This document shows positions 1 through 30,314 of a stretch of DNA of 43,438 nucleotides, in pieces. Under the pieces are notes generated by a model. The model saw nothing but the letters and a program-made list of their open reading frames with translations, did not search any database and was not told the DNA's origin. A program made the translations under genes and the position numbers. The stretch is from a virus: positions 1 to 43,438 of the IMG/VR virus record IMGVR_UViG_3300045996_001641; one strand, written 5' to 3'. How positions within the stretch are numbered: the first letter of the stretch is position 1; each line of letters starts with the position of its first letter.

Positions 1-1
1 C

Positions 2-85
2 GAGCACATGGCCGCGCTGTCGGAGCGCAGGGGCAAGATCGAGACGCTGAAGCAAGAGTTGGGGAGGAAGGTGCCCGGTGGCTGA
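2..85 (+). CDS. C-terminal end of an unidentified protein (runs in from the left edge)
   Basis: An open frame enters from the left edge and gives 27 residues before TGA. The visible part is charged and probably helical (ERRGKIETLKQEL), like the end of a short coiled coil. The next gene's GTG start overlaps its last codons, as elsewhere in this cluster, which supports it being real. An internal ATG at position 8 could start a 25-residue peptide, but a truncated longer gene is more likely. No function can be given. Confidence 0.5.
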   Translation, partial: EHMAALSERRGKIETLKQELGRKVPGG

Positions 86-632
86 CCTTGTTTGCGAGAT
101 GGTGATCGCGTGGCCGACCGATCGCGACGTGTTCCCAGACGACCCGGGAGAGCGCGACTGCGGCAAGCCAGCGACGCGTCGATGCTGCGGGCAGCCTGTC
201 TGCTCGAACTGCGAGCACAACTCAGGGACTCGGAAGCCTCACCGGATAGAGCCGGCCACCGAAGAGCCCGACCCGAAGCGGGGGGAGGCGCTACCGTGGG
301 AAGGGCACTACGCGGACACACCGCTCGGCGCGTGGCAGGCCTGGGCGTTCGACCTGATTCTCGACTGCGCACTCCTCGAAGGAGCGCCTGTCACCGACGA
401 CAGCGTCTTGCGTGACCGAATCGGAGCGGCTGTGCGAGCCCCTGCCGGCGTGCCGGTCGAGCGGGTGGAGCTACCAGAGTGGCGTGTCGCCAAGGTCCGC
501 GGAGCCATGGCGTTCGCTCGAGAGGCCTGGAAGCATAACGACGGCGCAGAGGGCGAGTCCGTGCGCCTGATCTGCAATGCGCTGGAGACGCTCCTGCCCA
601 AGGCAAAGCCCGACGCGGGCGGAGGTGGGTGA
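78..632 (+). CDS. Hypothetical protein with N-terminal Cys cluster
   Basis: 184 residues. The GTG start is preceded by GGAGG about ten bases upstream and overlaps the preceding stop. Cysteines at about 28, 36, 37, 42 and 45, with a nearby His (CCGQPVCSNCEH), look like a small zinc-binding knuckle. The rest is an acidic linker (about 55-75) followed by a helical domain with an Ala/Leu-rich stretch. The tail ends in four glycines. It belongs to no family I recognise. The gene heads a run of overlapping small genes, so it is probably co-transcribed with them. Confidence 0.75.
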   Translation: MADLVCEMVIAWPTDRDVFPDDPGERDCGKPATRRCCGQPVCSNCEHNSGTRKPHRIEPATEEPDPKRGEALPWEGHYADTPLGAWQAWAFDLILDCALLEGAPVTDDSVLRDRIGAAVRAPAGVPVERVELPEWRVAKVRGAMAFAREAWKHNDGAEGESVRLICNALETLLPKAKPDAGGGG

Positions 633-633
633 G

Positions 634-855
634 ATGGCGAAACAGGTCTACCGCTGGACGTCGTGGGTGGTCGTGGCGCGAGAGCCGGACGGTTCGGAGT
701 GGCTTGCTGCCACCGGATTCGACTTCCGCAGACAAGCGCGCATCGAGATCGATGAAACCCTCCGAACGGTAGCTCCGCGCTGCAAGTTCGTCACGAGGCC
801 TGTCAGCAACGAGGTCGAGCTCGCGCTGCCGAAGCGCCCGAAGAAGGTGAAGTGA
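634..855 (+). CDS. Small hypothetical protein, 73 aa
   Basis: The ATG follows the previous stop by one base, with a good GGAGGTG ribosome site inside the end of the upstream gene, so I chose it over an earlier in-frame start. The protein has strand-like segments (YRWTSWVVVAR, SEWLAATGF), a helix (ARIEIDETLRTV) and a second strand pair, then a Lys/Arg-rich tail (PKRPKKVK). The tail may be a nucleic-acid contact. Function unknown. Confidence 0.7.
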   Translation: MAKQVYRWTSWVVVAREPDGSEWLAATGFDFRRQARIEIDETLRTVAPRCKFVTRPVSNEVELALPKRPKKVK

Positions 856-860
856 TAGCG

Positions 861-1037
861 ATGACCAAGGCAGAGCGTGAGGCCCCGGTGGTCGTCATAG
901 AGGGCACCGTTGCCGGCGCTGAACTCAGTGAGTTCGCTAGGGCTGCTGAAGAGCAGAACCTTGCTCTCTGCTCTCGTCTCATCAGGTGGGGCGTCAGCAA
1001 GCCGAAGCGCCCGAAGCGAAGGAAGGCGGGGCGATGA
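861..1037 (+). CDS. Small hypothetical protein, 58 aa
   Basis: Starts at ATG 861, nine bases after an alternative GTG at 852 that overlaps the previous stop. Either may be used, which would add three residues. The N-terminal two thirds has a strand (APVVVIEGTV) and a helix (LSEFARAAEEQNLALCSRLI). The end is strongly basic (KPKRPKRRKAGR), resembling the basic tail of the preceding protein. The next gene overlaps it by ATGA. No known family. Confidence 0.6.
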   Translation: MTKAEREAPVVVIEGTVAGAELSEFARAAEEQNLALCSRLIRWGVSKPKRPKRRKAGR

Positions 1038-1282
1038 GCACCAGTCTGGACACCGCTTGCCGCGAACTCGCCGCGCTGTGCCAGGAGCTCGGAATCTGGG
1101 GCGCCCATGTCGGTGTTCGGTGCGACGGTCGCGTGGAGGTTGAGTTGCTCAGAGACTCGGTCGGCAGCGTTCGCGAACACGCCGACATCACGCATCCGGA
1201 GAACCCGCTGCCTGCCCCGTCTCGCGCCCTCACGATGGTGACCGAGAAGATGCGCGAGCAGCTCACCAAGAGGCGCCGATGA
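1034..1282 (+). CDS. Small hypothetical protein, 82 aa
   Basis: The ATG overlaps the previous stop (ATGA), which fixes the start and implies translational coupling. The predicted layout is an N-terminal helix (LDTACRELAALCQELGIWG), a strand pair (AHVGVRCDGRVEVELL), and a C-terminal helix ending in KRRR. Function unknown. Confidence 0.7.
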   Translation: MSTSLDTACRELAALCQELGIWGAHVGVRCDGRVEVELLRDSVGSVREHADITHPENPLPAPSRALTMVTEKMREQLTKRRR

Positions 1283-1656
1283 AACCACTGCGCGAAACGG
1301 TGGTGGAGCTGCGGAGGCTCGAGAAGGAGGCGACGCCGGGGCCGTGGCGACACGACAACGATGCGAAGGGCACGGAAGGCGACCCGTGCCTATTCACCGA
1401 GCGGGGCCCATCCTTTTGCCCGGGGAAGTCGCCGATATTCACAGCTCCGGCGTTCTGGACTGCCGCCGATGGAGACCTGTGCGCCGCCGCTCGCAACAGC
1501 CTCGGCCAGCTCCTCGACGCCGCCGACGAGAACGAGAGGCTTCGGTCGCTGCTGGGGGAAGCGCTGGCGGCGTTCAAGCGAGGGCACTGGTTAGTGGACA
1601 TTGAGGACCGCATCGAGGCGGAGCTGGGGACGCAGAGCGGGGAGGCGAGCAAGTGA
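1279..1656 (+). CDS. Ead/Ea22-like phage protein
   Basis: 125 residues, overlapping the previous stop by ATGA. The opening LRRLEKEATPGPWRHDND, followed by AARNSLGQLLDAADENERLR, has the layout of Ead/Ea22-like proteins of lambdoid and other phages: an ATPGPW motif, a small variable β region, then a helix around 'RN.L..LLD'. Those proteins sit in early regions and have no settled function. The resemblance is by motif only. The C-terminus is helical and acidic. Confidence 0.65.
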   Translation: MKPLRETVVELRRLEKEATPGPWRHDNDAKGTEGDPCLFTERGPSFCPGKSPIFTAPAFWTAADGDLCAAARNSLGQLLDAADENERLRSLLGEALAAFKRGHWLVDIEDRIEAELGTQSGEASK

Positions 1657-1850
1657 TCGCGCCACGTCAAATCCGCTGCATCCTCGACGCAACCGGCCAC
1701 ATCGTCGAAGCCGCCGCCTGGACCCAAGCCGAGGCTCGCTCATGTCGCCGCAAGTGGGCGCAGGCTTACCCCGAGCGGAAGTTCGCCATCGCGGCCTACG
1801 AGTTGAAGCGGCCGGATGGGGTGGTGATCAGGTTGGCGGGGAAGGGGTGA
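1653..1850 (+). CDS. Small hypothetical protein, 65 aa
   Basis: The GTG start overlaps the previous stop. It is a compact mixed α/β protein: strand (QIRCILDATGHIVEAAAW), helix (TQAEARSCRRKWAQAYP), strand (KFAIAAYELKRPDGVVIRLAG). It is the last gene of the overlapping chain that begins at 78. A non-coding stretch with two palindromes follows. No known family. Confidence 0.65.
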   Translation: MIAPRQIRCILDATGHIVEAAAWTQAEARSCRRKWAQAYPERKFAIAAYELKRPDGVVIRLAGKG

Positions 1851-1853
1851 CGA

Positions 1854-1869
1854 TTTCTGGAGCCAGAAA
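1854..1869. promoter_or_regulatory. Inverted repeat TTTCTGG-AG-CCAGAAA
   Basis: A perfect 7-bp inverted repeat with a 2-bp centre starts three bases after a stop codon. The small centre fits a dimeric protein-binding site better than an RNA hairpin. No U-tract follows, so it is not a standard terminator. It lies about 40 bp upstream of the first 14-bp palindrome. Confidence 0.4.
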
Positions 1870-1905
1870 AGGCTGAAGTGAGAATAACCGACAGACCATC
1901 GCTGG

Positions 1906-1936
1906 CGTTGGCGCCAACGGTGTGGCAGGGTATCTT
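1906..1936 (+). promoter_or_regulatory. 14-bp palindrome (operator copy 1) within a candidate promoter
   Basis: CGTTGGCGCCAACG (1906-1919) is a perfect palindrome that recurs once, at 2648-2661. Inside it, TTGGCG (1908-1913) is followed after 17 bp by TATCTT (1931-1936), giving a possible -35/-10 pair. A dimer bound to the palindrome would cover the -35 box. The palindrome ends 18 bp before an ATG, the same distance as in the second copy to within one base. Confidence 0.55.
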
Positions 1937-1937
1937 C

Positions 1938-2141
1938 ATGTTGAACGTGAACGAGACAAAGGTGATTGCGGAGGCTTCGACGGTTGACGGCGTGCTTTTC
2001 ATGAGCCGAGGCCGCCGCGGCTCTGTGCTCGTTTCCAGGGAACACGCGTGGTCGGACGTGCAGGCCTGGCAGAAGAACGAGAAGGTCAACCGAATCATGG
2101 TGCGACGAAAGGGCGAGATCGTCTGGACCTGGACTCGCTGA
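1938..2141 (+). CDS. Small hypothetical protein behind palindrome 1, 67 aa
   Basis: I start at ATG 1938 because the in-frame upstream start would place the palindrome inside the gene. The ATG falls one base after the candidate -10, so if that promoter is real the start may be later or another promoter is used. The protein looks β-β-α-β: VDGVLFMSRGRRGSVLVS, helix REHAWSDVQAWQ, strand NRIMVRRKGEIVWTW. Function unknown. Confidence 0.6.
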   Translation: MLNVNETKVIAEASTVDGVLFMSRGRRGSVLVSREHAWSDVQAWQKNEKVNRIMVRRKGEIVWTWTR

Positions 2142-2160
2142 TCGCCCCTAGGCCCACCCG

Positions 2161-2194
2161 GCCCGGCACTCGCGGCAAACCGCGGGCCCCGGGC
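2161..2194 (+). promoter_or_regulatory. Stem-loop H1 of a four-member hairpin family
   Basis: Lower stem GCCCGG/CCGGGC, a 2x2 mismatch, an upper stem of seven pairs including one G-T, and the loop CAAA. The GTG start of the next gene follows about 20 bases later, with GGAGG between. The same lower stem and a single unpaired base at the same junction recur in H2, H3 and H4. Few Ts follow, so it would be a poor intrinsic terminator. A leader structure or processing site are alternatives. Confidence 0.6.
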
Positions 2195-2214
2195 TCGAGG
2201 GCGTGGAGGCACCA

Positions 2215-2400
2215 GTGACTTACCAGATTCGCTCCAAGAAACCTCACGAGCACGCGGAACTCGAGCGCTTCTCGCAGCGCGAGAATGTCGGCCTGATCAA
2301 TTACACCTCGGAGTTTCACGCGCGCGCCGTCGCGGACGCGCTGAAGAAACACGCGCACATTACGTGCGTCGTGTGGCTCGATGGCAAGCCCCTCGACTGA
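2215..2400 (+). CDS. Small hypothetical protein behind hairpin H1, 61 aa
   Basis: GTG start with GGAGG five bases upstream. An in-frame GTG at 2203 overlaps that ribosome site and is less likely. Layout: strand VTYQIRSKK, helix EHAELERFSQREN, strand VGLINYTS, helix EFHARAVADALKKH, strand ITCVVWLDGKPL. That is a compact α/β fold. Function unknown. The non-coding leader holding H1 separates it from the gene before. Confidence 0.6.
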   Translation: MTYQIRSKKPHEHAELERFSQRENVGLINYTSEFHARAVADALKKHAHITCVVWLDGKPLD

Positions 2401-2442
2401 CCCCTCGCCCTCGCGACCCCGGCCCGGTAGGCTAGCGCGCCC

Positions 2443-2643
2443 ATGCCAAAGAAGAAGCGACCCGTGAGAGGATCTAGCGACACGCCTTCGGAAGAGTACC
2501 TGAACGCCAAATGGGAGCGCGCGAACATCCGCATGCCGAAGGAACTTGGCCTTGTGAAGCGCCTGCGAGCGCTCGCGGATCGCCGAGGTGAGTCACTGTG
2601 GGAGTGGGTTAAGCGCCACGTCGAGATCGATGAAAGAAAGTGA
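2443..2643 (+). CDS. Ribbon-helix-helix (Arc/CopG-like) DNA-binding protein
   Basis: 66 residues with a basic N-terminus (MPKKKRPVRG). Then come a short strand (ANIRMP, about 27-32), a helix (KELGLVKRLRALADRRG) and a second helix (ESLWEWVKRHVE). This strand-helix-turn-helix order is the RHH plan of Arc/CopG/MetJ proteins, which dimerise and bind palindromes through the strand. The gene lies between two identical 14-bp palindromes, one 5 bp after its stop, so autoregulation or cross-regulation is a reasonable guess. The start is the only ATG in frame; the ribosome site is weak. Confidence 0.7.
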   Translation: MPKKKRPVRGSSDTPSEEYLNAKWERANIRMPKELGLVKRLRALADRRGESLWEWVKRHVEIDERK

Positions 2644-2647
2644 TTGA

Positions 2648-2661
2648 CGTTGGCGCCAACG
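2648..2661. promoter_or_regulatory. 14-bp palindrome (operator copy 2)
   Basis: Identical to the copy at 1906-1919, CGTTGGCGCCAACG, with G following in both. TTGACG overlaps its left edge, but no good -10 follows at 17 bp. It ends 17-18 bp before the ATG of the next gene. Two identical 14-mers 742 bp apart with matching geometry are unlikely by chance. Confidence 0.6.
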
Positions 2662-2678
2662 GATGTCACTCTGCCTCT

Positions 2679-2885
2679 ATGAACAACGCCGCTGCCACCG
2701 ACACCACCCGCAACTCACTCATTGACGCCATCTCGACCAAGGTAGAGCCACTCGATCGGGACTCGGTATGCATCTACCGACACGGCGTCTTCATTCGCTC
2801 CTGCTCTCACGACTCGGCCAGCGGCTACATCGACAATCTCGTTAGGCGCGGCTACGGCAAGGTGAGTGAGTGCGAGATCAGGTGA
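2679..2885 (+). CDS. Small hypothetical protein behind palindrome 2, 68 aa
   Basis: I start at ATG 2679; an earlier in-frame GTG at 2640 would put the palindrome inside the coding region. Layout: Thr/Asn-rich start, helix (RNSLIDAISTKV), strand pair (DSVCIYRHGVFIRSCS), helix (DSASGYIDNLVRRG), strand (KVSECEIR). The β-β-α-β end is similar in plan, not clearly in sequence, to the protein behind palindrome 1. Function unknown. Confidence 0.6.
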   Translation: MNNAAATDTTRNSLIDAISTKVEPLDRDSVCIYRHGVFIRSCSHDSASGYIDNLVRRGYGKVSECEIR

Positions 2886-2906
2886 TCGCGACTGCGTCAC
2901 CGGCTG

Positions 2907-2938
2907 GCCCGGCACTCGCGGAAAGCGCGAGTCCGGGC
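2907..2938 (+). promoter_or_regulatory. Stem-loop H2 of the hairpin family
   Basis: GCCCGG, one unpaired C, ACTCGCG, loop GAAAG, CGCGAGT, CCGGGC. Thirteen base pairs with a single bulge make it the strongest member. It is followed by CTTAGGCGCGTGGAGGG and an ATG. H1 has a closely related follow-on (GAGGGCGTGGAGG), so the whole leader seems duplicated, not only the stem. Confidence 0.65.
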
Positions 2939-2962
2939 CTTAGGCGCGTGGAGGGACACAGC

Positions 2963-3157
2963 ATGACCAAATCAGCCAGCACGATCCGCATCTGGAAGGA
3001 CGACAGTGAAGTGGTTTTCGTCTTCGGCGAGGGGACGGCGCCGGTTCAGGTTCACGAGGACGGGCGCACCGTCGTCTGGGGATACAAGACCGCTAGCGCT
3101 GAGCTGACGACGCGACTGCGCCTTGGCTGGAGCTTGACGCCGGTGACGGTGGAGTAG
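2963..3157 (+). CDS. Small hypothetical protein behind hairpin H2, 64 aa
   Basis: ATG with GGAGGG seven bases upstream. The open frame extends further upstream but would include hairpin H2, so I reject the longer form. The sequence is almost all strand-like: STIRIWKDDSEVVFVFG, APVQVHEDGRTVVWGY, with a short helix (SAELTTRLRLG). It may be a small β-barrel or sheet. Function unknown. Confidence 0.6.
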   Translation: MTKSASTIRIWKDDSEVVFVFGEGTAPVQVHEDGRTVVWGYKTASAELTTRLRLGWSLTPVTVE

Positions 3158-3176
3158 GGGACGACGGAGCCGACTG

Positions 3177-3205
3177 GCCCGGAGTTGCCGCGAGGTGACC
3201 CGGGC
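3177..3205 (+). promoter_or_regulatory. Stem-loop H3 of the hairpin family
   Basis: GCCCGG, unpaired A, GTTGCC, loop GCGA, GGTGAC, CCGGGC. The loop is a GNRA tetraloop. Compared with H4 the upper stem keeps pairing while changing sequence (G-C to C-G at the first pair, T-G to C-G at the third), a small sign of selection on structure. TTTCGGG follows. Confidence 0.6.
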
Positions 3206-3217
3206 TTTCGGGTGCCA

Positions 3218-3230
3218 GGAACCTGGTTCC
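3218..3230. promoter_or_regulatory. Short palindrome GGAACC-T-GGTTCC
   Basis: Six-bp arms around a single T, between H3 and a strong AGGAGG ribosome site. As RNA the one-base loop could not form, so it would open to a larger loop. As DNA it is a plausible dimer site. There is only one copy in the area. Confidence 0.3.
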
Positions 3231-3250
3231 GCAAACAACAGGAGGCGCCC

Positions 3251-3514
3251 ATGCCGCCGTGCTGGCGAAAGCCAGTAGAGCCCGACTCGCCACGGGGTGA
3301 GCGGGCTTTAGGCGTCATGAGCGAGCAATTTCTGATTCAGAGCTTCGATGGGACCGCGTTCGTTGCCGTGGGGACAGATTGCAAGCTGGATCGTGCACGC
3401 CGTGCCGCGCAGACGATCACTCGACTTCGAGATTGTGAGACACGCGTAATTGATCGAGCGCTTCCGGTCGGGCCGCCGTGGATGGTGTCAGTTGTGGCCA
3501 GATATGAGCCGTGA
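3251..3514 (+). CDS. Hypothetical protein with two possible starts (87 or 65 aa)
   Basis: ATG 3251 has an excellent AGGAGG five bases upstream. A second in-frame ATG at 3317 has almost none but lies directly after hairpin H4, as starts lie after the other hairpins. The shared part is strand (EQFLIQSFDGTAFVAVG), helix (KLDRARRAAQTITRLRD) and strands (ETRVIDRALP, PWMVSVVARYE). The extra N-terminus (MPPCWRKPVEPDSPRGERALGV) looks unstructured. If 3251 is used, H4 lies inside the coding region and could control initiation at 3317. Function unknown. Confidence 0.6.
   Translation: MPPCWRKPVEPDSPRGERALGVMSEQFLIQSFDGTAFVAVGTDCKLDRARRAAQTITRLRDCETRVIDRALPVGPPWMVSVVARYEP
3280..3306 (+). promoter_or_regulatory. 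Stem-loop H4 of the hairpin family
   Basis: GCCCG, unpaired A, CTCGCC, loop ACGG, GGTGAG, CGGGC, then TTTAGGCGTC and an ATG at 3317. An extra A-T pair can extend the lower stem. It is the same bulged architecture as H2 and H3. The TTTAGGCG that follows also matches the CTTAGGCG after H2. Confidence 0.6.
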
Positions 3515-3517
3515 TTT

Positions 3518-3808
3518 ATGACCCAACTTGCCATCAAGCTCACCCCTCCGCTCGACCTCGCCCCCTGGCGCATACCGCTGTGGGGCGACGAGTACCAGGC
3601 GATCGTCGACGCCGCCGCATCCGAAGTCACGCTACACCCGGACGAGACTTTGACCGAAGCACTGCGCCGCTTCGGCTACGAGCGCGCCACCGTCGACGGC
3701 CGCCGAGTCACCGTGCGGAACGGCGTGGTTAAGCGGCTGGGCGATTGTCGACGGAGCTGGATTTGGTTGGCCCGAGTGAAGAGGCGTATTCAAGGGAGAC
3801 GAGGATGA
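3518..3808 (+). CDS. Hypothetical protein, 96 aa
   Basis: ATG three bases after the previous stop. The N-terminal 45 residues are hydrophobic and mixed (LAIKLTPPLDLAPWRIPLWGDEYQAIVDAAA). Then come a helix (TLTEALRRFGYERA), a strand (TVDGRRVTVRNGVV) and a strongly basic end (RRSWIWLARVKRRIQGRRG). A basic, Trp-containing tail could bind nucleic acid or membrane. Unrecognised. Confidence 0.65.
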   Translation: MTQLAIKLTPPLDLAPWRIPLWGDEYQAIVDAAASEVTLHPDETLTEALRRFGYERATVDGRRVTVRNGVVKRLGDCRRSWIWLARVKRRIQGRRG

Positions 3809-4128
3809 GCAAGTGGAACGTCGGCGACGATTGCGTGGTGACCAACGTCAACGCCAGGCCCAAGCACACCAAGATTGAGAAGGTTGGTCGCAAGTTCGTG
3901 ACGGCGGGCGGCCACGACTTCGAGATCGAGACCGGCAACGATCGCGACAAGGTCTACCGTCACTTTCGCCTCTACACGCTCGCCGAATGGGAGCGGGTCA
4001 TCGCGGTGGGCGAGGTCTGCGATGCGGTTAACTGCTTCAAACGCGCATCAGTCGAAGGTCTGACAAATGCGCAACTCAGGGCGCTGCGGGACATCTTGCG
4101 AAAACCAGCGCTCACTCCGGAGCTGTAG
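3805..4128 (+). CDS. Hypothetical protein with SH3-like N-terminus, 107 aa
   Basis: The ATG overlaps the previous stop (ATGA) and has GGAGACGAGG upstream. The first half (KWNVGDDCVVTNV, HTKIEKVGRKFVTAGGHDFEIETG) has the spacing of a small β-barrel of the kind found in many phage proteins opening with 'VGD.V'. The second half is helical (LAEWERVIAVGEV, LTNAQLRALRDILRK) with two Cys. No enzyme motif is visible. Confidence 0.65.
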   Translation: MSKWNVGDDCVVTNVNARPKHTKIEKVGRKFVTAGGHDFEIETGNDRDKVYRHFRLYTLAEWERVIAVGEVCDAVNCFKRASVEGLTNAQLRALRDILRKPALTPEL

Positions 4129-4316
4129 TGCGCTGCAACTTCTGCAACGACCCCGCCGTGCACGACTCGACCGGCTCGCGCTACGGCTCCAGAATGCTCG
4201 CCTGCTACGCCTGCACGGTCAGGTTCTGGAAGTGGGCCTTGCAGCACATCAACCGGCCAGCGCGGAAGAATGGGGCTGACTTTTACGAGGCGGCCGGAAA
4301 GTGGAGGATGAAGTGA
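4128..4316 (+). CDS. Small zinc-ribbon-like protein, 62 aa
   Basis: The GTG start shares one base with the preceding TAG. Two Cys pairs, CNFC (3, 6) and CYAC (26, 29), twenty residues apart match a zinc ribbon or treble-clef knuckle. The C-terminal half is helical and basic (VRFWKWALQHINRPARK). Such proteins often bind nucleic acid or another protein; nothing more specific is visible. Confidence 0.65.
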   Translation: MRCNFCNDPAVHDSTGSRYGSRMLACYACTVRFWKWALQHINRPARKNGADFYEAAGKWRMK

Positions 4317-4699
4317 CCAAGCTATCCCAATCCGAATTGACAGCCCTGCTTGCGCCAGTGCGCGCGGAGCTCGACAGGATCGAAGCCGAATCCGCAGTCA
4401 CGATCGAACGGGAGGAGGCGGCGGGCGAGGGCTCGTATGATGCCATCGCGTATCACGACGCCAGGGGGTCACTTGACACAGTCAAGAGCATCCGCGCCGT
4501 TCTCGACCGCCTCAACCCCGAGGCCGACACCCTGGTGATCCTCGGGATCGCGGCGCTCGGGATGCTGCGGGAGCTGCGAGACAGCGGTAACCTCAGCGTG
4601 CACGCCAACCGTGTCGAGGGTGGACCTGCTGCCTACGAGGACTGGCACAAGCGTGCCGACGCGCTCCTGGCCGCGGCGTATCCGAAGGCGGGGGAGTGA
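4313..4699 (+). CDS. Hypothetical helical protein, 128 aa
   Basis: GTG start overlapping the previous stop, with GGAGGATG just upstream. The first 70 residues are predicted as long acidic helices (LSQSELTALLAPVRAELDRIEAESAVTIEREEAAGEG), coiled-coil-like. A hydrophobic helix (TLVILGIAALGMLRELRDSG) and an amphipathic C-terminus follow. The hydrophobic stretch is too charged at its end to be a sure membrane span. Function unknown. Confidence 0.65.
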   Translation: MTKLSQSELTALLAPVRAELDRIEAESAVTIEREEAAGEGSYDAIAYHDARGSLDTVKSIRAVLDRLNPEADTLVILGIAALGMLRELRDSGNLSVHANRVEGGPAAYEDWHKRADALLAAAYPKAGE

Positions 4700-5280
4700 T
4701 GGAAACGCAACGAGTCGAGCCCACGCATTGCGACACCTGCCCAGCCAGCCTCGAGCGCGGCTACTCGTACGTCTACGAGGGAGAGAAGCTGGTGCGCGCC
4801 ATCTGCTTCGACTGTGACCGCAAGGAGCGCAATGCCGCGTTCCTGAAGACCGGCGTGCTGACGACCAAGACCATGGTCGAGGCGTCACTTGATCGGGCTC
4901 GGCCGCATGCGCCGTCCCATGCTCCACCGGAAGCAGTCGCCGCCCTGGACGCCATCGAAGCCGCGACCAAGGAGTTCGACCGCGACGTCTGGTACGGCGG
5001 CCTGCGTGAGTTCCTAGTGGCGTCGAATGACCGTGGCCACTCACGCCACGAAGGCAAGTTCAAGATCCTTTCGTACTACATGGCCGGCCGCTACATGTTC
5101 ACGCTCGAAGACGACGAGGCGAGCCTGACCCTGATCACGACTGACGACCCAGGTGTGCGCATGGGCATCCAGGGCGTGTGCGCAACGAAGGGTCAAGCGC
5201 TATCGCTGGTTGGGCGCGCGCTGGACCTGTGGCGAAAGCACGGAAGCCTTGAGCCCGATCGCGAGGTAGGGCTGCTCTAG
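4699..5280 (+). CDS. Hypothetical protein with N-terminal zinc finger, 193 aa
   Basis: ATG 4699 overlaps the previous stop; a GTG one codon earlier is possible. Cysteines at 11, 14, 36 and 39 (CDTC...CFDC) form a clean four-Cys zinc site in the first 40 residues. The middle is helical (VAALDAIEAATKEFDRD). The C-terminal 80 residues look like an α/β domain (YYMAGRYMFTLEDDEASLTLIT, then a helix KGQALSLVGRALDLWRKHG). No catalytic motif seen. Confidence 0.7.
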   Translation: METQRVEPTHCDTCPASLERGYSYVYEGEKLVRAICFDCDRKERNAAFLKTGVLTTKTMVEASLDRARPHAPSHAPPEAVAALDAIEAATKEFDRDVWYGGLREFLVASNDRGHSRHEGKFKILSYYMAGRYMFTLEDDEASLTLITTDDPGVRMGIQGVCATKGQALSLVGRALDLWRKHGSLEPDREVGLL

Positions 5281-5306
5281 TCGGCCACCAGTGCTACGCC
5301 AACCGC

Positions 5307-5498
5307 GTGCCCTTCCTCACCGAGACCATCCACCTAGCCAGCGGCCAAACCTGCGAGATCGCCTACGAACTAATGCGCGACGGCGGCTACTGCGCGATCC
5401 TGGAGTTCGGCGGCGTCAGGGTCACGGCTGCCGGCGCGACCAGGGAGCTGGCCAAGGCGAACCTGGTGGCCAAGCTGGCGGCGAGGGTGGGCGAGTGA
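5307..5498 (+). CDS. Small hypothetical protein, 63 aa
   Basis: GTG start with no strong ribosome site; the exact start is uncertain. Layout is strands (LTETIHLASGQTCEIAYEL, GYCAILEFGGVRVTAAG) then a helix (TRELAKANLVAKLAARVG), a β-β-β-α mini-protein like several others in this cluster. The stop overlaps the next start by GTGA. Function unknown. Confidence 0.55.
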   Translation: MPFLTETIHLASGQTCEIAYELMRDGGYCAILEFGGVRVTAAGATRELAKANLVAKLAARVGE

Positions 5499-5752
5499 CC
5501 TGGGCCAAGAACGGGCCCGTCTGGTGTCGCTTCTTCAACGGCGACGCCGACCGCTACCATGCGGCAATCGACGGCTACATTCGCCGCGTCTACGCCGATG
5601 GTTCAGCCACCTACTACGACCGGCAGCAGCGGCTCGTCACCATCCCACCCAAGCCCTGGCAGCACTGGGCGACTCGCGAGGAATGCGAGGCCGAGATCGC
5701 GAAGCAGCCGTGGCTGGATGTGCCGACGATCTCGGAGAGGGTAAGCCGCTGA
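5495..5752 (+). CDS. Hypothetical protein, 85 aa
   Basis: GTG start overlapping the previous stop. Rich in aromatics (WAKNGPVWCRFF, ATYYDRQQ, PWQHWATREE). The latter half looks like a small domain ending in a helix (REECEAEIAKQPW). It is the last of the unrecognised plus-strand genes before the toxin-antitoxin promoter. No known family. Confidence 0.6.
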   Translation: MTWAKNGPVWCRFFNGDADRYHAAIDGYIRRVYADGSATYYDRQQRLVTIPPKPWQHWATREECEAEIAKQPWLDVPTISERVSR

Positions 5753-5777
5753 TTTCCGTTGTTGACGGATTGTTTAC

Positions 5778-5812
5778 AGTCTGTTGACAGACTATTCACC
5801 GGGTGTCATATT
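5778..5812 (+). promoter_or_regulatory. Promoter and operator of the toxin-antitoxin operon
   Basis: TTGACA (5784-5789), 17 bp, CATATT (5807-5812) form a good -35/-10 pair. A perfect palindrome, AGTCTG-TTGA-CAGACT (5778-5793), overlaps the -35 box. This is the usual arrangement where an antitoxin represses its own operon. A weaker repeat, CCGT-TGTTG-ACGG, lies just upstream (5757-5769) and contains TTGACG. The start codon follows the -10 by only six bases, so the transcript would be leaderless or nearly so. Confidence 0.65.
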
Positions 5813-5818
5813 GGTTCC

Positions 5819-6166
5819 GTGGTCGAGGTCATCGTTACCGACAACTTCAGAGAGTGGTACGAGGCGCTCGACGACTCCGGCGTCGAAGACGTTGGTGCTG
5901 CGATTGGTGTGCTTGAGGACCAAGGTGTTAACTTGGGCTTCCCGCGCTCTAGCGACATCAAGGGCGCGTCCTTTGCACTACGTGAGCTTCGCGTTCAGTC
6001 AAATGGTCGACCGTTCCGCGTGTTCTATGCATTCGACCCTGCGCGACAAGCCGTCCTACTCATTGGCGGCGACAAGACCAACGACAACCGCTTCTATGAG
6101 ACCATGATCCCGGTCTCTGAGCGCATCTGGAAGGAGTACCTCCATGAAACTGCACAAGTGGAATGA
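5819..6166 (+). CDS. RelE/HigB-family toxin (type II toxin-antitoxin)
   Basis: 115 residues, GTG start chosen because the longer frame would run through the promoter. The order of segments is typical of HigB/Gp49-like RelE-superfamily toxins: FREWYEALDD, a helix ending LEDQGVNLGFPRSSDIKG, then LRELR (54-58), RPFRVFYAFDP, LLIGGDKT and a C-terminal helix. Family members are mRNA interferases acting at the ribosome. The basic residues of LRELR and RPFR are present, so the toxin looks intact. The downstream antitoxin overlaps by 23 bases. Confidence 0.8.
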   Translation: MVEVIVTDNFREWYEALDDSGVEDVGAAIGVLEDQGVNLGFPRSSDIKGASFALRELRVQSNGRPFRVFYAFDPARQAVLLIGGDKTNDNRFYETMIPVSERIWKEYLHETAQVE

Positions 6167-6446
6167 CGTAAAGCGGGGGCGCCTCTCAGAAGAGCAGATC
6201 CGGCGCGTCGATGCCCGCGTGCAGATTGATCTGCTGGAGATGACCCTTGCTCAGCTCCGCAAGGAACTAGACCTGACGCAGGAGCAGGTGGCTGCCGCTG
6301 CGGAGATGACGCAGAGCGAGTTCTCGAAGATCGAGCGCCGAGATGACCACCGTGTCTCCACGTTGCGTCGTGTGTTGCGCGCACTTGGTGGCGACATCGA
6401 GGTCACGGCTGTGCTGCCCGATCGTCGCGTAAAGCTGAGCATATAA
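6144..6446 (+). CDS. HigA-like antitoxin, XRE-family helix-turn-helix
   Basis: 100 residues. An N-terminal arm (about 1-35, with DARVQIDLLEMTLAQLRK) precedes a clear XRE helix-turn-helix (LTQEQVAAAAEMTQSEFSKIERR, then STLRRVLRALGGDIEV). GGAGT upstream and the overlap with the toxin frame support translational coupling. As in HigBA systems the toxin gene comes first. The protein should neutralise the toxin and repress the operon at the palindrome at 5778. A terminator follows the stop by 12 bases. Confidence 0.8.
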   Translation: MKLHKWNDVKRGRLSEEQIRRVDARVQIDLLEMTLAQLRKELDLTQEQVAAAAEMTQSEFSKIERRDDHRVSTLRRVLRALGGDIEVTAVLPDRRVKLSI

Positions 6447-21532: not shown

Positions 21533-21999
21533 TAAACGGCAGCTCCAAGCTCAACAGGGAAGATGTCGCCGGCCGGGTCTTTGGCAACGATTCCGGCCTG
21601 CTCGATCGACAGGTACATTGATAAGCCAACAGCGGGCGCAGGCACGCTCGCGTCAGAGATAGGCGATAACCGGATCACTTCGACGAGTTGCGAGATCCCG
21701 ACGCTGGTCACACTCAGGCGCAGCACGTAGGCCGTGGCACTGTCCACGATGCACTGAATTGTCCACAGCCCGCCCACGTCCGGTGTGAACGAGACTGAAG
21801 CGCCGGTCGTAGCGTCGAGCGCAGAGCGAGCTCGATTGCTCGTCGATGGCCAGCTGAGCGACCACACGTAGTCGGTGCCACTTGGGTTCGTGGTCAGAAG
21901 GATCCGCTCATTGGTCACATACCCAGCCCGCGCGTTGTCGGCAGACGTGTCACCAGCGAGCATTGTCGCCGACGCTGAATTGGCCAGTATTCCTGCCAT
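21532..21999 (-). CDS. Ig-like tail protein, 155 aa
   Basis: β-rich (RILLTTNPSGTDYVWSLSWP, TTGASVSFTPDVGGLWTIQCIVDS, AYVLRLSVTSV), the usual pattern of one bacterial Ig-like domain ('VSFTPD..G.W.iq..v.d'). It has the same type of core as the N-terminus of its neighbour at 19913. Its ATG lies almost exactly opposite the start of the HNH gene on the other strand. Confidence 0.65.
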   Translation of the reverse strand: MAGILANSASATMLAGDTSADNARAGYVTNERILLTTNPSGTDYVWSLSWPSTSNRARSALDATTGASVSFTPDVGGLWTIQCIVDSATAYVLRLSVTSVGISQLVEVIRLSPISDASVPAPAVGLSMYLSIEQAGIVAKDPAGDIFPVELGAAV

Positions 22000-22786
22000 G
22001 TGCTATGGAGTCCCTGTGATTAGGTACAATGGGAAGTCACAGAGCGTGGCTGCGTGGGCTCGTGAGCTCGGCATATCTGCTCTGTCGCTCAGGTGGCGGC
22101 TCGACAACGGGTGGAGCGTGGAACGCGCACTGTCGATTGCTCCCTCCAAACACAACAAGCGCATCGACATCACTGGCGAGCGCTTTGGTAGGCTTGTTGC
22201 GCTGAGTGCGCACTCTTACGGCAAGCAAACCAGGTGGAACTGCGTCTGTGACTGTGGAGAGAGGCGCGTTGTGCTGCTCTCGCAGCTGCGGGATGGTAAG
22301 ACGCAGTCATGCGGCTGTTTACACATTGAGCGGGTTAAGGCGGCTCGGACCCACGGAATGGCTAGCTCGCCGGAGTACACGGTGTGGCGCTCAATGCTGG
22401 ATAGGTGCAGGAACCCGAATGGGGCCACCTACGCCAGGTATGGCGGTCGCGGCATTGCTGTCTGCGCCAGGTGGCAGGGTTCCTTCGAGGCCTTCTATGC
22501 AGACATGGGTCCTCGACCATCGCCTGAGCATTCGATCGACCGCATCGACAACTCGGGCAACTACGAGCCCGGGAACTGTCGCTGGGCCACCCACACGGAA
22601 CAGGCTCTGAATAAGCGCAACAATCGCTTCATCGAGTGGAATGGGGCGCGCCTTACTGTGACCCAGTGGGCGGGAAGGATCGGCGTGTCACAGTCGGCGT
22701 TGTCTCACCGGCTGTCACGTGGCGAGGATCCGTGCGCGGCGCTTTCCGCTTTGTCCCGTTACGTTGCTAGGCGACGCGCTGCGTAA
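21998..22786 (+). CDS. HNH homing-type endonuclease flanked by duplicated helix-turn-helix modules
   Basis: 262 residues, opposite to all neighbours. Core: CVCDCG/SCGC zinc residues (82-107), HG and YTVWRSMLDRCRNPNGATYARYGGRG (127-151), then HSIDRIDNSGNYEPGNCRWATHTEQ (178-202), the signature of phage HNH homing endonucleases. Residues 10-46 and 213-250 are related to each other (NGKSQSVAAWARELGISALSLRWRL against NGARLTVTQWAGRIGVSQSALSHRL), so DNA-reading modules sit on both sides of the catalytic core. It has inserted between two tail genes without disrupting them. Confidence 0.85.
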   Translation: MCYGVPVIRYNGKSQSVAAWARELGISALSLRWRLDNGWSVERALSIAPSKHNKRIDITGERFGRLVALSAHSYGKQTRWNCVCDCGERRVVLLSQLRDGKTQSCGCLHIERVKAARTHGMASSPEYTVWRSMLDRCRNPNGATYARYGGRGIAVCARWQGSFEAFYADMGPRPSPEHSIDRIDNSGNYEPGNCRWATHTEQALNKRNNRFIEWNGARLTVTQWAGRIGVSQSALSHRLSRGEDPCAALSALSRYVARRRAA

Positions 22787-25086: not shown

Positions 25087-25857
25087 TTACGAAGGCGTAA
25101 GCCCTGTGTAATCGAGCGGGTCGATATCGAGATCGAACCCACCCGGCTCGGAAAGTGTGAACGTGCAATAGGCTGGCAATATGCGATCGAGCAGCTGCAC
25201 GCCCTGCACGTTGATGAGTTGCGTGTACTCGCCGAGCGTCATGCCTGGCGGCTGCTGAACCTGAACCCAGAGGTGGCTACGTTCGCTGGACCAGGCTCCC
25301 CCACCGAGGTCTGTCAACGGATCACCCGGATTTACCCCAGGCCAGAACGTCTGTGTCGGTGGGTTCGCTAGGTCTGTGCCCTCCGTGAAGCTCGCGTCGA
25401 CATAAACGTCGCCAAGCAGATCCTGGAGCGCGGTCCGGATCGTGGCCAGGTTCAGTTCCGCGCTGGCCTTGAAGTGTGCGGCGCATCGCTGCCTGAGTTG
25501 CCACTTCTGATCGGTGGGGCTCGACGGGACCGCCAGCACCTTGACCCAGTACGGCAGCCCCTCGTCAGACGTAGCCGGTTGCTGCGCGTTGCAAGCGAAC
25601 TTCTCCGGCGCGCGAAAGCAGCGATAGGCCAGGACGCGTGCGGCCGCCAGGTTCTCACAGTGGACGAGCGTGCCGCCGAGTTGCTTTGAATAGGCAGACC
25701 CGCGGAGGTTGCGCAGCTCGCAGTAGACGAACCACGCGTAGGGCGCCGAGCCCTCGGTATCGCTTGCGCGCTTGTCCAGAGCCCCGCCGTAATCGCCGAT
25801 CGCAGCAGCGCGGCTCCATGCCGGTTTGCCGGCTGGTGTCATTGACCCGTTCGCCAT
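25087..25857 (-). CDS. Baseplate protein, YmfQ/Mu gp48-like
   Basis: 256 residues. It comes after the baseplate J gene (with two small genes between), where Mu-type phages carry gp48. The C-terminal half (ELNLATIRTALQDLLGDVYVDAS ... LLDRILPAYCTFTLSEPGGFDLDIDPLDYTGL) has the YmfQ-like plan of a strand/helix block and a short conserved β tail. The N-terminus (AGKPAWSRAAAIGDYGGALDKR) resembles that of the protein at 26310, which is unusual. It would help attach fibres to the baseplate wedge. Confidence 0.6.
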   Translation of the reverse strand: MANGSMTPAGKPAWSRAAAIGDYGGALDKRASDTEGSAPYAWFVYCELRNLRGSAYSKQLGGTLVHCENLAAARVLAYRCFRAPEKFACNAQQPATSDEGLPYWVKVLAVPSSPTDQKWQLRQRCAAHFKASAELNLATIRTALQDLLGDVYVDASFTEGTDLANPPTQTFWPGVNPGDPLTDLGGGAWSSERSHLWVQVQQPPGMTLGEYTQLINVQGVQLLDRILPAYCTFTLSEPGGFDLDIDPLDYTGLTPS

Positions 25858-25860
25858 CGT

Positions 25861-26313
25861 TCACCAAACCGAGACACTGATGGCGCGGTCTGCAAGCAGG
25901 CCGCCAACGGTTCGCAGTCGAACCTGGATCCCGCTGGCGATGATGGTGACCACTACCGCGGCCTGATTCGCGCCGCCGATGCCGTTGTCATGGGCGTTCG
26001 CGATGACATGGCGGATCTTAAACGGCTGCTGAATGCCGTAGTCGTCTTCGAGCGATGGCGACGGCCACGTGAACGAGTAGATGCCGCTTCCGTCGACAGA
26101 GATCTCCGGCGCGTGCTCGAAGCCGGAGCCATTCATCCCGTAGTAACTGATGTATTCGAAGTTGGGGGCGATGCAGCTCCACGCGGCAAGTGGTGCCACA
26201 CGCGATGCTGCAACTAGGTCAGCGCAGAAGCGCGCGTGCTGCTCAGGCGCCCAGCCTTCGGTTGCGCTTCCGCCCAGACGGATCGGCGCCGGAGAGAATC
26301 CGCCCCAGGTCAC
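25861..26313 (-). CDS. Paralogue A of a tandem pair, tail region, 150 aa
   Basis: Shares plan and end with its upstream neighbour: a middle strand region (PNFEYISYYGMNGSGFEHAPEISVDGSGIYSFTWPS) and a final QVRLRTVGGLLADRAISVSVW, which aligns with TVRVRVYSDTGAAVSDPRFTLAVW next door. The chain is shorter and its N-terminus differs. Tandem duplicates near baseplate/fibre genes suggest adapter proteins. Function unknown. Confidence 0.6.
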   Translation of the reverse strand: MTWGGFSPAPIRLGGSATEGWAPEQHARFCADLVAASRVAPLAAWSCIAPNFEYISYYGMNGSGFEHAPEISVDGSGIYSFTWPSPSLEDDYGIQQPFKIRHVIANAHDNGIGGANQAAVVVTIIASGIQVRLRTVGGLLADRAISVSVW

Positions 26314-26849
26314 CAGACCGCCAGTGTGAAGCGAGGGTCTGAGACAGCTGCACCAGTGTCGCTATAGACGCGTACACGCACCGTCTGCCCAGAGATCACA
26401 ACCGGTGCGACGCGATGGGCGGTGGCCATGACGGTCGTCACCGCCTGCGTGGGGGCGAACGGGCCAGCCGTAGCGTACTCATCGTCGTAGCTCGCATCGA
26501 AAGTGACCGTAACGTCGCCGTTCCCGTTGCGGGCGACGGAGGGGTAGCCAGCAGGCGGACTGTCTCCCGCGTAGCTCGTCGATGGCACACCGGTCATCAT
26601 ATTGATGAACTCGACAGTCGGCGCAGCCGGAGACGAGTCGTTGCAGAGCATCGTCATCACGCACATCGGCAGCGTGCGCACGACCGCTGCGAGGTCGGCG
26701 GCAGCACGGCAAAGGTTCTCCGCGCCTACGTCCGTCTGGGCGTTTATGCACCCAGAATTCATGAAGTTCTGCTTGTTAAGGTTGCCGCCGTATTGCTCGT
26801 GGCTCGCAGTACGAGTCCAGGCTGGCAACCCCTCAGGTATGATCGGCAT
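26310..26849 (-). CDS. Paralogue B of the tandem pair, tail region, 179 aa
   Basis: The N-terminus LPAWTRTASHEQYGGNLNKQ is like that of the YmfQ-like protein at 25087, while the rest is like paralogue A (NGNGDVTVTFDASYDDEYATAGPF; ending FTLAVW). It looks like a mosaic. The start overlaps the baseplate J stop. β-rich with two Cys pairs (LCRAAADLAAVVRTLPMCVM). It is probably a baseplate-associated accessory. Confidence 0.6.
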   Translation of the reverse strand: MPIIPEGLPAWTRTASHEQYGGNLNKQNFMNSGCINAQTDVGAENLCRAAADLAAVVRTLPMCVMTMLCNDSSPAAPTVEFINMMTGVPSTSYAGDSPPAGYPSVARNGNGDVTVTFDASYDDEYATAGPFAPTQAVTTVMATAHRVAPVVISGQTVRVRVYSDTGAAVSDPRFTLAVW

Positions 26850-28357
26850 CAGATCGGGTAGAAGGCTAGATTTTGAGGAACAAGCACGTTCGGCGGATCA
26901 TCGACACCGCTCGGGATGGTCGGCGTCGTCAGGCTCTGATGCGAGAACTCGAAGTCAGTGATCTCCGGGTTGTCTCGACTCAGGCGAGTGAGCGCGGCGT
27001 TGGTGACGCCAGCTGGGTCTTCGCTCGTGGTGAACGGGTGTCGCTTCGATCGCGGCAACCGGTTCGCGTCGGCGGTCATCTCTCCGGGGCCGAGTTCCTG
27101 GAACAGCGCCACCCAGGTCTCGGCGTACCTCACCAGGTTCTGTGCGTTGGGCGAGATGAAGTCGCCGACAGTTGGGCCGATGCCGTTCTTGCCGACAAGC
27201 GGTCGGTCGAGGGTGAGCACCCAGGCGCCGGCCGTGCCGCTGTGGTCGGTAACGAGCGCGGGATAGAAGGTCCGGTCGTTGCGACTGAACCACGCTACCT
27301 GAGTCTGTCCGTCCACCGGCTCTGTCGCGGTATCAGCGGTGACGGTGATCTCGTCGTTCGTCGAGTTGACGGCGCTGATCGTCACGCGTCCGTTGTCTGC
27401 TGGCTCGAGCTGCGGCCATGGATCCGGGTCCGTCCAGCCCTGCCCGTTGCCGCCCGCGAGTGACGATTCGGGGATCTCAAGCAGCACTGCAAAGTCAGCC
27501 GCTTCATCGATGGCGGCGCGAACCGAAGTCTCGATGCCGGTGTTGGCGTCGGCCTGCAGCGAGTTGCGGATCGCCTGTAAGAGCGCGTCCGATGGCGCAC
27601 GCGAGAAGTCGTTGTTGTCCGGATCGAACTCGCGAACCGGAACGATCAGCTGCGAGCTCGGGCCACCGAGGGCAGGGTAGATGTAGCAGTCCTGGACGAA
27701 GCCGAACTCAGCCAGCACCTTGTCGCGCAGGTAGGCCCAGTTGCCCGCCGCGGGCTTGTTCCTGAGGACGTTGAGAATGCGGTCGCGCTTGCGCTCGTCA
27801 TCCTCGGCATTTGTGCCGCCGGTTAGCGGGAACTCTGCAGAGACTTCGGCCTCGGATTCGACGTTGGTTGGCGGCGAAACGAACGTGACGGTCTCGCCGG
27901 CTGCGAGGTTCGTGTCGGTGCCGGTGTCGATCGCCGCAACGTCGATCTCTTGGCCATCGACCGGGTTGATCGTCGTGCTGATCGTCTGGATCCGCTTGCC
28001 GTTCGGGAGCGTCAGCTGTTGACCGCTGCCGATCGTGGTCGAACCAAGGACCGTGACCCTGATCTTGCCGCTCGCGCCGGTGGGCTCGACGATGTCTAGG
28101 CCGTAGCCTTCACGCAGCCGATCGAGAGCCGCGCCCGTCGCGGTAAGGACGTTGGCATCGTCAGCGTGTATCGACTCGTTCGTGATCCCGATCAGCGAGA
28201 TCTGAGCGATGCCTTCGCCGATGATGTAAGCGTCGGTGCCGGGGCCAACGGGCGCAACCAGGCCAGCGTCAGAGGCAGCAAGCTGGTAGTCGGTGAGGAA
28301 CTGATTGCGCAGCTCCGCCGATCCGCTCGGCGTGGTGATGACAGCTACTTCAGCCAC
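26849..28357 (-). CDS. Baseplate J-like wedge protein (Mu gp47 family)
   Basis: 502 residues. Motifs of the J family appear in order: a helical start, GAALDRLREGYGLDIVEPTGASGKIRVTVLG, the insertion of β structure with TIGSGQQLTLPNGKRIQT, then TGGTNAEDDERKRDRILNVLRNKPAAGNWAYLRDKVLAEFGFVQDCYIYPALGG, the best-conserved segment of the family. It forms baseplate wedges that trigger sheath contraction. The start overlaps the upstream gp25-like gene's end by a few bases. Confidence 0.85.
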   Translation of the reverse strand: MAEVAVITTPSGSAELRNQFLTDYQLAASDAGLVAPVGPGTDAYIIGEGIAQISLIGITNESIHADDANVLTATGAALDRLREGYGLDIVEPTGASGKIRVTVLGSTTIGSGQQLTLPNGKRIQTISTTINPVDGQEIDVAAIDTGTDTNLAAGETVTFVSPPTNVESEAEVSAEFPLTGGTNAEDDERKRDRILNVLRNKPAAGNWAYLRDKVLAEFGFVQDCYIYPALGGPSSQLIVPVREFDPDNNDFSRAPSDALLQAIRNSLQADANTGIETSVRAAIDEAADFAVLLEIPESSLAGGNGQGWTDPDPWPQLEPADNGRVTISAVNSTNDEITVTADTATEPVDGQTQVAWFSRNDRTFYPALVTDHSGTAGAWVLTLDRPLVGKNGIGPTVGDFISPNAQNLVRYAETWVALFQELGPGEMTADANRLPRSKRHPFTTSEDPAGVTNAALTRLSRDNPEITDFEFSHQSLTTPTIPSGVDDPPNVLVPQNLAFYPI

Positions 28358-29467: not shown

Positions 29468-30015
29468 TTCGCCGAGCGCTTGAGTGGTTTGGTGGCTCCG
29501 TCTTGGTCTACGTGCTGGTCGCGGCGTGCAGTTCGACGTCCGGCGGCGGCGGGCAGCCTGTGTCGATGGGCGAGGGCGGCGATGGCTCTGGCGGTGTCCA
29601 GGGCAACGGTGGAGAGGGAGTCCAGGGCGGCCGCGACGGTGGCATCATGAACCCTGTGCCCGATGCGATGGCGGCTGCAGGTGCGGGCAACGATGGCGAT
29701 GGGTCCTGTGAGTGCCCCGATCCGTACGTGCCACCGAAGCCGACCGTCGTGGAGGCGGAATGCGATATCGAGGGGCCTAGTGGCGTCATGTTCGCCGAAG
29801 CGGAATTCCCCGGAAAGACCGCTGATGAACTTGCTAGCACCACTGCGCTTGTCGAGTTCCCTCACGACATCGCGAGCAAGGTGCCCACTGGAGCGCCTGA
29901 TGGCTACGCTGCCCAATCGGCAAACGTATTCGTGCGCGATGGGTTCGTCGCCACCAACTGCGGAGCGTCCGGGAACGACCACGTTGCAACGCGCGTGGTC
30001 TTCACGCTGCCCTAG
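29464..30015 (+). CDS. Island gene 3: Gly-rich lipoprotein, 183 aa
   Basis: The signal ends in LVAAC (Cys22), a fair lipobox. The mature N-terminus is a long Gly/Ser linker with many charges (SGGGGQPVSMGEGG, GGVQGNGGEGVQGGRDGG), a style common in myxobacterial surface lipoproteins. A C-terminal β-like domain follows (about 95-183: CECPDPYVPPKPTVVEAECDIEGPSGV, ending DHVATRVVFTLP) with four Cys. The final TAG is shared with the convergent gene's TAG (CTAG). It could be an o-spanin, a surface-exclusion factor or a cargo gene; not resolved. Confidence 0.65.
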   Translation: MIRRALEWFGGSVLVYVLVAACSSTSGGGGQPVSMGEGGDGSGGVQGNGGEGVQGGRDGGIMNPVPDAMAAAGAGNDGDGSCECPDPYVPPKPTVVEAECDIEGPSGVMFAEAEFPGKTADELASTTALVEFPHDIASKVPTGAPDGYAAQSANVFVRDGFVATNCGASGNDHVATRVVFTLP

Positions 30016-30314
30016 TCAAATGGGCACGGCACAGAGAACGTCGGCAGCGTCGGGAGCTTCGGAATCGGCAGGGACGGGAACGGCAGTGCTAGCTTCGGAA
30101 GCTCCAGGTTTACGTCAAAGTCCAGATCGACGCTGAAGCTTGGCAGTGACGGTAGCTTGGGAATGGGCAACGAAGGGAACGGCAGCGCGAGGGTCGGCAG
30201 ATCCAAGCTCAGGTCGATGTCCAAATCGACGCTGAAGCTTGGAATCGTGGGTAGCTTCGGGATCGGAAGCGATGGCACCGGCAGCCTCAGCGCCGGCAAA
30301 TCGAAATTACACAA
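30012..30314 (-). CDS. Pro-rich three-repeat protein after the spike gene (novel)
   Basis: 100 residues made almost wholly of a 33-residue unit: LPxLxLPxPSLPIPKLPxxP then SFSVDLDxDxxL, starting at 6, 39 and 72; the third copy lacks its last segment. The ends mirror each other: MCNFD at the start and PCPFD at the end. Hydrophobic Leu/Pro/Ile, with acidic patches only in the DLDxD turns. The gene follows the baseplate spike gene by three bases, where some contractile systems carry a spike-tip (PAAR-like) protein. A repeating tip or shaft, with the terminal Cys linking chains, is my inference; no family recognised. Confidence 0.6.
   Translation of the reverse strand: MCNFDLPALRLPVPSLPIPKLPTIPSFSVDLDIDLSLDLPTLALPFPSLPIPKLPSLPSFSVDLDFDVNLELPKLALPFPSLPIPKLPTLPTFSVPCPFD

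Follow-up and report, generated by a model that had tools for sequence, protein, structure and literature searches.

A conserved 14-bp palindrome is probably the operator of an Arc/CopG-like protein in an almost uncharacterised phage group

Ribbon-helix-helix (RHH) repressors that bind palindromes and control their own synthesis are well known. The locus described here shares several traits with the Arc/CopG/MetJ group of these repressors, which includes P22 Arc, CopG and the MazE and VapB antitoxins: a small protein, a putative strand followed by two helices, and a palindromic operator-like site near the operon that encodes the protein. It differs from the named RHH families in that its protein has no significant match to any of them, a weak profile link being seen to Arc (E 0.1) and MazE7 (E 0.07). 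Moreover, we know of no operator of an Arc/CopG/MetJ repressor that resembles the palindrome of our locus, CGTTGGCGCCAACG. Short conserved stretches just before several gene starts, known as start-associated sequences, are reportedly found in the Cluster K mycobacteriophages, where they are said to occur in many copies and to have no link to an RHH gene. In a further parallel, MobC of plasmid RA3 is an RHH autorepressor whose palindrome lies between the -35 and the -10 of its own operon (PMC4175270). Unlike the protein of our locus, MobC is a conjugation auxiliary protein; its palindrome is imperfect, and no homology has been shown between the two. A full-text literature search did not find TTGGCGCCAA as an operator, and, as far as our searches go, the repressor-operator pair proposed below is undescribed.

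The locus lies in an IMG/VR virus fragment of 63% GC, and the window, by which we mean the whole stretch of DNA analysed, is that record at its full length of 43,438 bp. Genes of the early region (1-6446) run along the + strand, those of the late region mainly along the - strand. Among the late genes are those for a tail sheath and a baseplate, named through their match to MW202476.1, a 77-kb Caudoviricetes sp. genome (isolate cta39025) from Manatee Spring, and these point to a probable myovirus. Genes for the terminase, the portal and replication did not turn up in the 43,438-bp record, which is therefore probably incomplete.

Several other features of the two regions deserve mention. Four sibling GC-rich hairpins are found on the + strand in the gaps between small early genes (2161-2194, 2906-2939, 3176-3206 and 3278-3308); three of them have a lower stem of 6-7 bp (GGCCCGG type), one bulged base on the 5' side, an upper stem of 6-7 bp and a loop of 4-5 nt. 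Nothing else in the window fits this pattern, the fold z-scores range from -2.0 to -3.5, and the hairpins are possibly terminators or start-associated RNA elements. At the end of the early region (5759-6446), a Gp49-like (DUF891) gene overlaps an Xre-type HTH gene (6144-6446), as in HigBA-type toxin-antitoxin pairs. In the late region, a small gene on the - strand (30012-30314), which adjoins the baseplate genes and has a counterpart in MW202476.1, encodes a repetitive protein rich in proline and leucine and contains a 99-bp tandem repeat with 76% identity (30036-30233). Finally, a + strand gene (21875-22786) sits inside the - strand late region and resembles MW202476.1 34870-35565 (annotated as pvl orf-50-like); the different placement of the similar gene in the two phages suggests a mobile, endonuclease-like insertion.

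The first-pass annotation of this DNA had described two identical 14-bp palindromes, each ending 17-18 bp before an ATG, with a small RHH gene between them. This description is accurate: both copies match CGTTGGCGCCAACG exactly, their ends lie 18 bp (copy 1) and 17 bp (copy 2) from the ATGs at 1938 and 2679, and the interval contains the expected ORF of 66 aa (Table 1). This ORF is the last of three small ORFs of like orientation between the copies, the second of which could alternatively start at an internal GTG at 2215. None of the three neighbours of the RHH gene, among which a toxin gene was sought, matched a known family in Pfam or PHROGs. The search for additional copies of the palindrome returned no third exact one in the 43,438-bp record, and since the record is a virus fragment, more could be present in the missing part.

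Table 1. Positions of the palindromes and of the genes associated with them in the window and in phage MW202476.1
Feature	Coordinates	Strand	Remarks
Palindrome copy 1, CGTTGGCGCCAACG	1906-1919	.	Exact match; proposed operator of the 1938-2643 operon
Small gene, first after copy 1	1938-2141	+	67 aa; ORF without Pfam or PHROG match
Small gene, second of proposed operon	2203-2400	+	65 aa from GTG 2203; ORF
Arc/CopG-like RHH protein gene	2443-2643	+	66 aa; proposed autorepressor; MW202476.1 relative, PHROG 13890, three-sequence profile
Palindrome copy 2, CGTTGGCGCCAACG	2648-2661	.	Exact match; proposed operator of the following transcription unit
Small gene, first after copy 2	2679-2885	+	68 aa; ORF without confident family match
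MW202476.1 arc-like gene	25510-25932	-	Annotated 'arc-like DNA binding domain'; 140 aa, RHH part C-terminal
MW202476.1 first gene of pair	25932-26258	-	1-bp overlap with start of arc-like gene
MW202476.1 palindrome, CGTTGGCGCCAACG	26277-26290	.	Exact 14/14 match

A sequence of this kind would rarely be found twice. The number of exact copies expected in the window is about 0.002 (0.0006-0.0037 with Markov orders 1-4), and a repeated 14-bp palindrome of any sequence appeared in only one of 200 order-3 simulations. When up to three mismatches to CGTTGGCGCCAACG are allowed, the window contains 26 sites against 4.9 expected; this excess is made of weak sites spread over the late genes, and none but the two exact copies is remarkable. 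Base composition is the one argument for a repeat that arose by chance, as the genome is GC-rich and GGCGCC is enriched in the window (55 observed, 39 expected), but two exact copies here together with a copy at the equivalent place in MW202476.1 make such an origin extremely improbable.

The comparison with MW202476.1 carries most of the argument. The two phages are distant: bases 1-25000 of the window have no near-identical DNA match among 50,697 phage records, and the sheath proteins are about 61% identical, while the order of the tail and baseplate genes is common to both and the late regions are largely collinear in protein comparisons. In a tblastn search of the same 50,697 records, the window RHH protein found MW202476.1 alone at E<=1 (E 0.1), a match that reaches E 1e-6 when MW202476.1 is searched as a single record. 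The protein found is the one annotated as arc-like, which shares with the window protein 33% identity over 61 aa (blastp; 43% in the best stretch) and a conserved PSExYLxxxWxR motif. MW202476.1 contains exactly one CGTTGGCGCCAACG, with about 0.005 expected, and this single copy precedes the ATG of 25932-26258 by 18 bp, at the head of a gene pair that ends in the arc-like gene. Thus, both phages have the identical palindrome at almost the same distance from an ATG, heading a cluster with an Arc-like gene at its end. They differ in that MW202476.1 has one copy instead of two and carries the RHH part at the C-terminus of a longer protein; the first gene of its pair is not detectably similar to any counterpart in the window, and its record annotates neither the palindrome nor any regulation.

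Beyond the spacing to the ATG, the 40 bp to either side of the palindrome are not clearly alike among the three sites (15-42% identity), so it is the 14-mer itself that is conserved. Its retention while the surroundings changed is the main reason to think that the site is functional, and the sequence comparison indicates that CGTTGGCGCCAACG very probably serves as a binding site; its pairing with the RHH protein is supported by two phages, with conservation of the site tested in one relative (n=1). That the binding protein is a different one, encoded by the phage or a repressor of its host, with the RHH gene a neighbour by chance, seems unlikely to us. Such a regulator could be sought in the Xre-type HTH antitoxin-like gene at 6144-6446 or in the further transcriptional regulator annotated in MW202476.1, and the binding and specificity of the RHH protein are themselves predictions. 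However, the sole relative of the RHH protein that was found sits in a pair headed by this same palindrome, and there is no copy with up to three mismatches near the Gp49/HTH pair.

Other occurrences of the palindrome served as a control for this association. Exact CGTTGGCGCCAACG sequences occur at more than 100 other places in IMG/VR viral contigs, nearly all of them inside long ORFs and apparently there by chance. Within 3 kb of these occurrences no relative of the window RHH protein was detected (best E 0.56), indicating that chance matches to the 14-mer do not mimic the association. One of these exact copies lies in a region of short ORFs with AT-rich, promoter-like flanks in an apparently unrelated virus (contig L087, 4863-4876), with no RHH gene of the window family nearby. 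Searches of viral contigs with the window RHH protein, a two-sequence RHH alignment, the full MW202476.1 protein and a codon motif found no further RHH relatives, and none were found in plasmids; a codon-motif search of genome contigs gave nine matches, which were discarded as they were all unrelated proteins. Eight relatives of the virus, all fragments, were found in IMG/VR through the sheath protein. These contain no RHH gene of the window family and no exact CGTTGGCGCCAACG, although they do contain near-matches with one or two mismatches.

We next consider the protein, for which sequence comparison gives moderate evidence of a ribbon-helix-helix (Arc/CopG-like) fold. No Pfam or NCBIfam model reaches threshold, and the match to PHROG 13890, an unnamed family, is modest (E 0.0012). 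The same PHROG is matched by the arc-like protein of MW202476.1 and by a second small protein of that phage (26469-26690), which itself gives E 0.012 with Pfam RHH_1 and matches the PHROG of Arc-like repressors weakly. A profile made from these three sequences and compared with the PDB finds MazE7, Arc and VapB26, all with weak scores (E 0.07-0.17) and with unrelated chains scoring alongside them. The window protein shows the pattern ERANIRM, helix, GES, helix, which fits the RHH layout and is conserved in the MW202476.1 relative. If the beta strand corresponds to ERANIRMP in the window protein and to DRLSLRLA in that of MW202476.1, both strands have the pattern R-x-(N/S)-x-R and the residues facing the DNA would be nearly the same, R-N-R and R-S-R, as would fit a single operator shared by the two proteins.

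Structure prediction added little. The AlphaFold2 monomer, modelled from the single sequence, is poor (mean pLDDT 67), with two C-terminal helices, a helix in place of the expected strand and no beta strand at all, as would be expected when an intertwined dimer is modelled as a monomer without relatives. Foldseek returned insignificant matches for this model, the top ones being to the RHH protein MatP, and we regard both predictions as uninformative on the RHH fold and not as support for it. MatP is, with ParG and Omega, one of the RHH proteins that serve in DNA organisation, replication or segregation, and these weak matches would agree with the palindromes being sites of that type, bound by the window protein. 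This we judge quite improbable, because the sites keep a constant 17-18 bp to the ATGs instead of forming iteron arrays, and because neither phage has an identified gene for a partition ATPase next to its RHH gene.

The position of the palindromes relative to promoters is less well defined. The overlap of copy 1 with a -35 element, suggested at first, was not borne out: TTGGCG-17-TATCTT can be written there, but the sigma-70 scan gives 0 matches, and it finds no consensus sigma-70 promoter at any of the three CGTTGGCGCCAACG sites. In MW202476.1, a weak promoter candidate read by eye, TTGCGT-16-TATTCT, straddles the palindrome; its -10 is 7 bp before the ATG, so that it would produce a leaderless transcript. 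The repeats could also act as RNA, either as a terminator or as a short hairpin of the 5' leader, given that each of the two window copies can be drawn as a 5-bp stem with a GCGC loop. Yet the folds of the transcripts of the three sites are at most slightly better than those of shuffled sequences (z -0.16, -1.44 and 0.14), no U tract follows the sites on the sense strand in the window, and the exact symmetry of the sequence, centre included, fits a site for a dimeric protein better. We consequently rejected the palindrome as an RNA element, a reading that we hold to be very improbable.

Taken together, these results lead us to propose that CGTTGGCGCCAACG is the operator of the RHH protein encoded at 2443-2643, which would regulate its own synthesis through copy 1, while copy 2 would control the next gene. 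We assign to this a probability of roughly 0.7. In the circuit that we infer, in which the fold, the binding of the protein to the site, repression, cotranscription and the promoter positions are all predicted, a dimer would dock at the palindrome with its two-stranded beta ribbon in the major groove, and transcription from overlapping or adjoining promoters would be shut off or dampened. Because copy 1 heads the 1938-2643 cluster, in which the repressor gene comes last, this would create an autoregulatory loop; copy 2 would place 2679-2885 under the same control. An operator-like site is thus found upstream of the repressor's own cluster, in the window and with the same layout in MW202476.1. 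The first-pass proposal of an RHH regulator with palindromic operators gains strong comparative support from the presence and spacing of CGTTGGCGCCAACG in MW202476.1. What becomes less likely is its picture of a stand-alone regulator of two unrelated genes, since the RHH gene ends the cluster that copy 1 heads, and for the same reason autoregulation is the likelier primary role.

Judging from the sequences, the repressor-operator pair is probably functional, of a kind known since P22 Arc and new to these almost uncharacterised phages. The locus provides a regulator side by side with its probable operator, and the strand residues R-x-(N/S)-x-R form with the 14-mer a recognition pair that is directly testable. 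It is also a case in which the by-eye reading of a palindrome in one phage could be checked against a distant relative whose surroundings have fully diverged. MW202476.1 carries, in addition, an exact 24-nt repeat (26309-26332 and 27223-27246), and on the - strand a perfect palindrome comes after each copy (CGTTGGCGCCAACG in one case, CGCTAGGGCCCTAGCG in the other), with a cluster ending in an RHH gene beyond it. These two operons, with different RHH genes and palindromes and the same 24-nt sequence ahead of them, raise the tentative and somewhat doubtful idea that early cassettes are interchangeable in this phage group, each cassette being a short operon with its own RHH regulator last and the perfect palindrome of that regulator first. 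If this is true, an operator would diversify together with its repressor.
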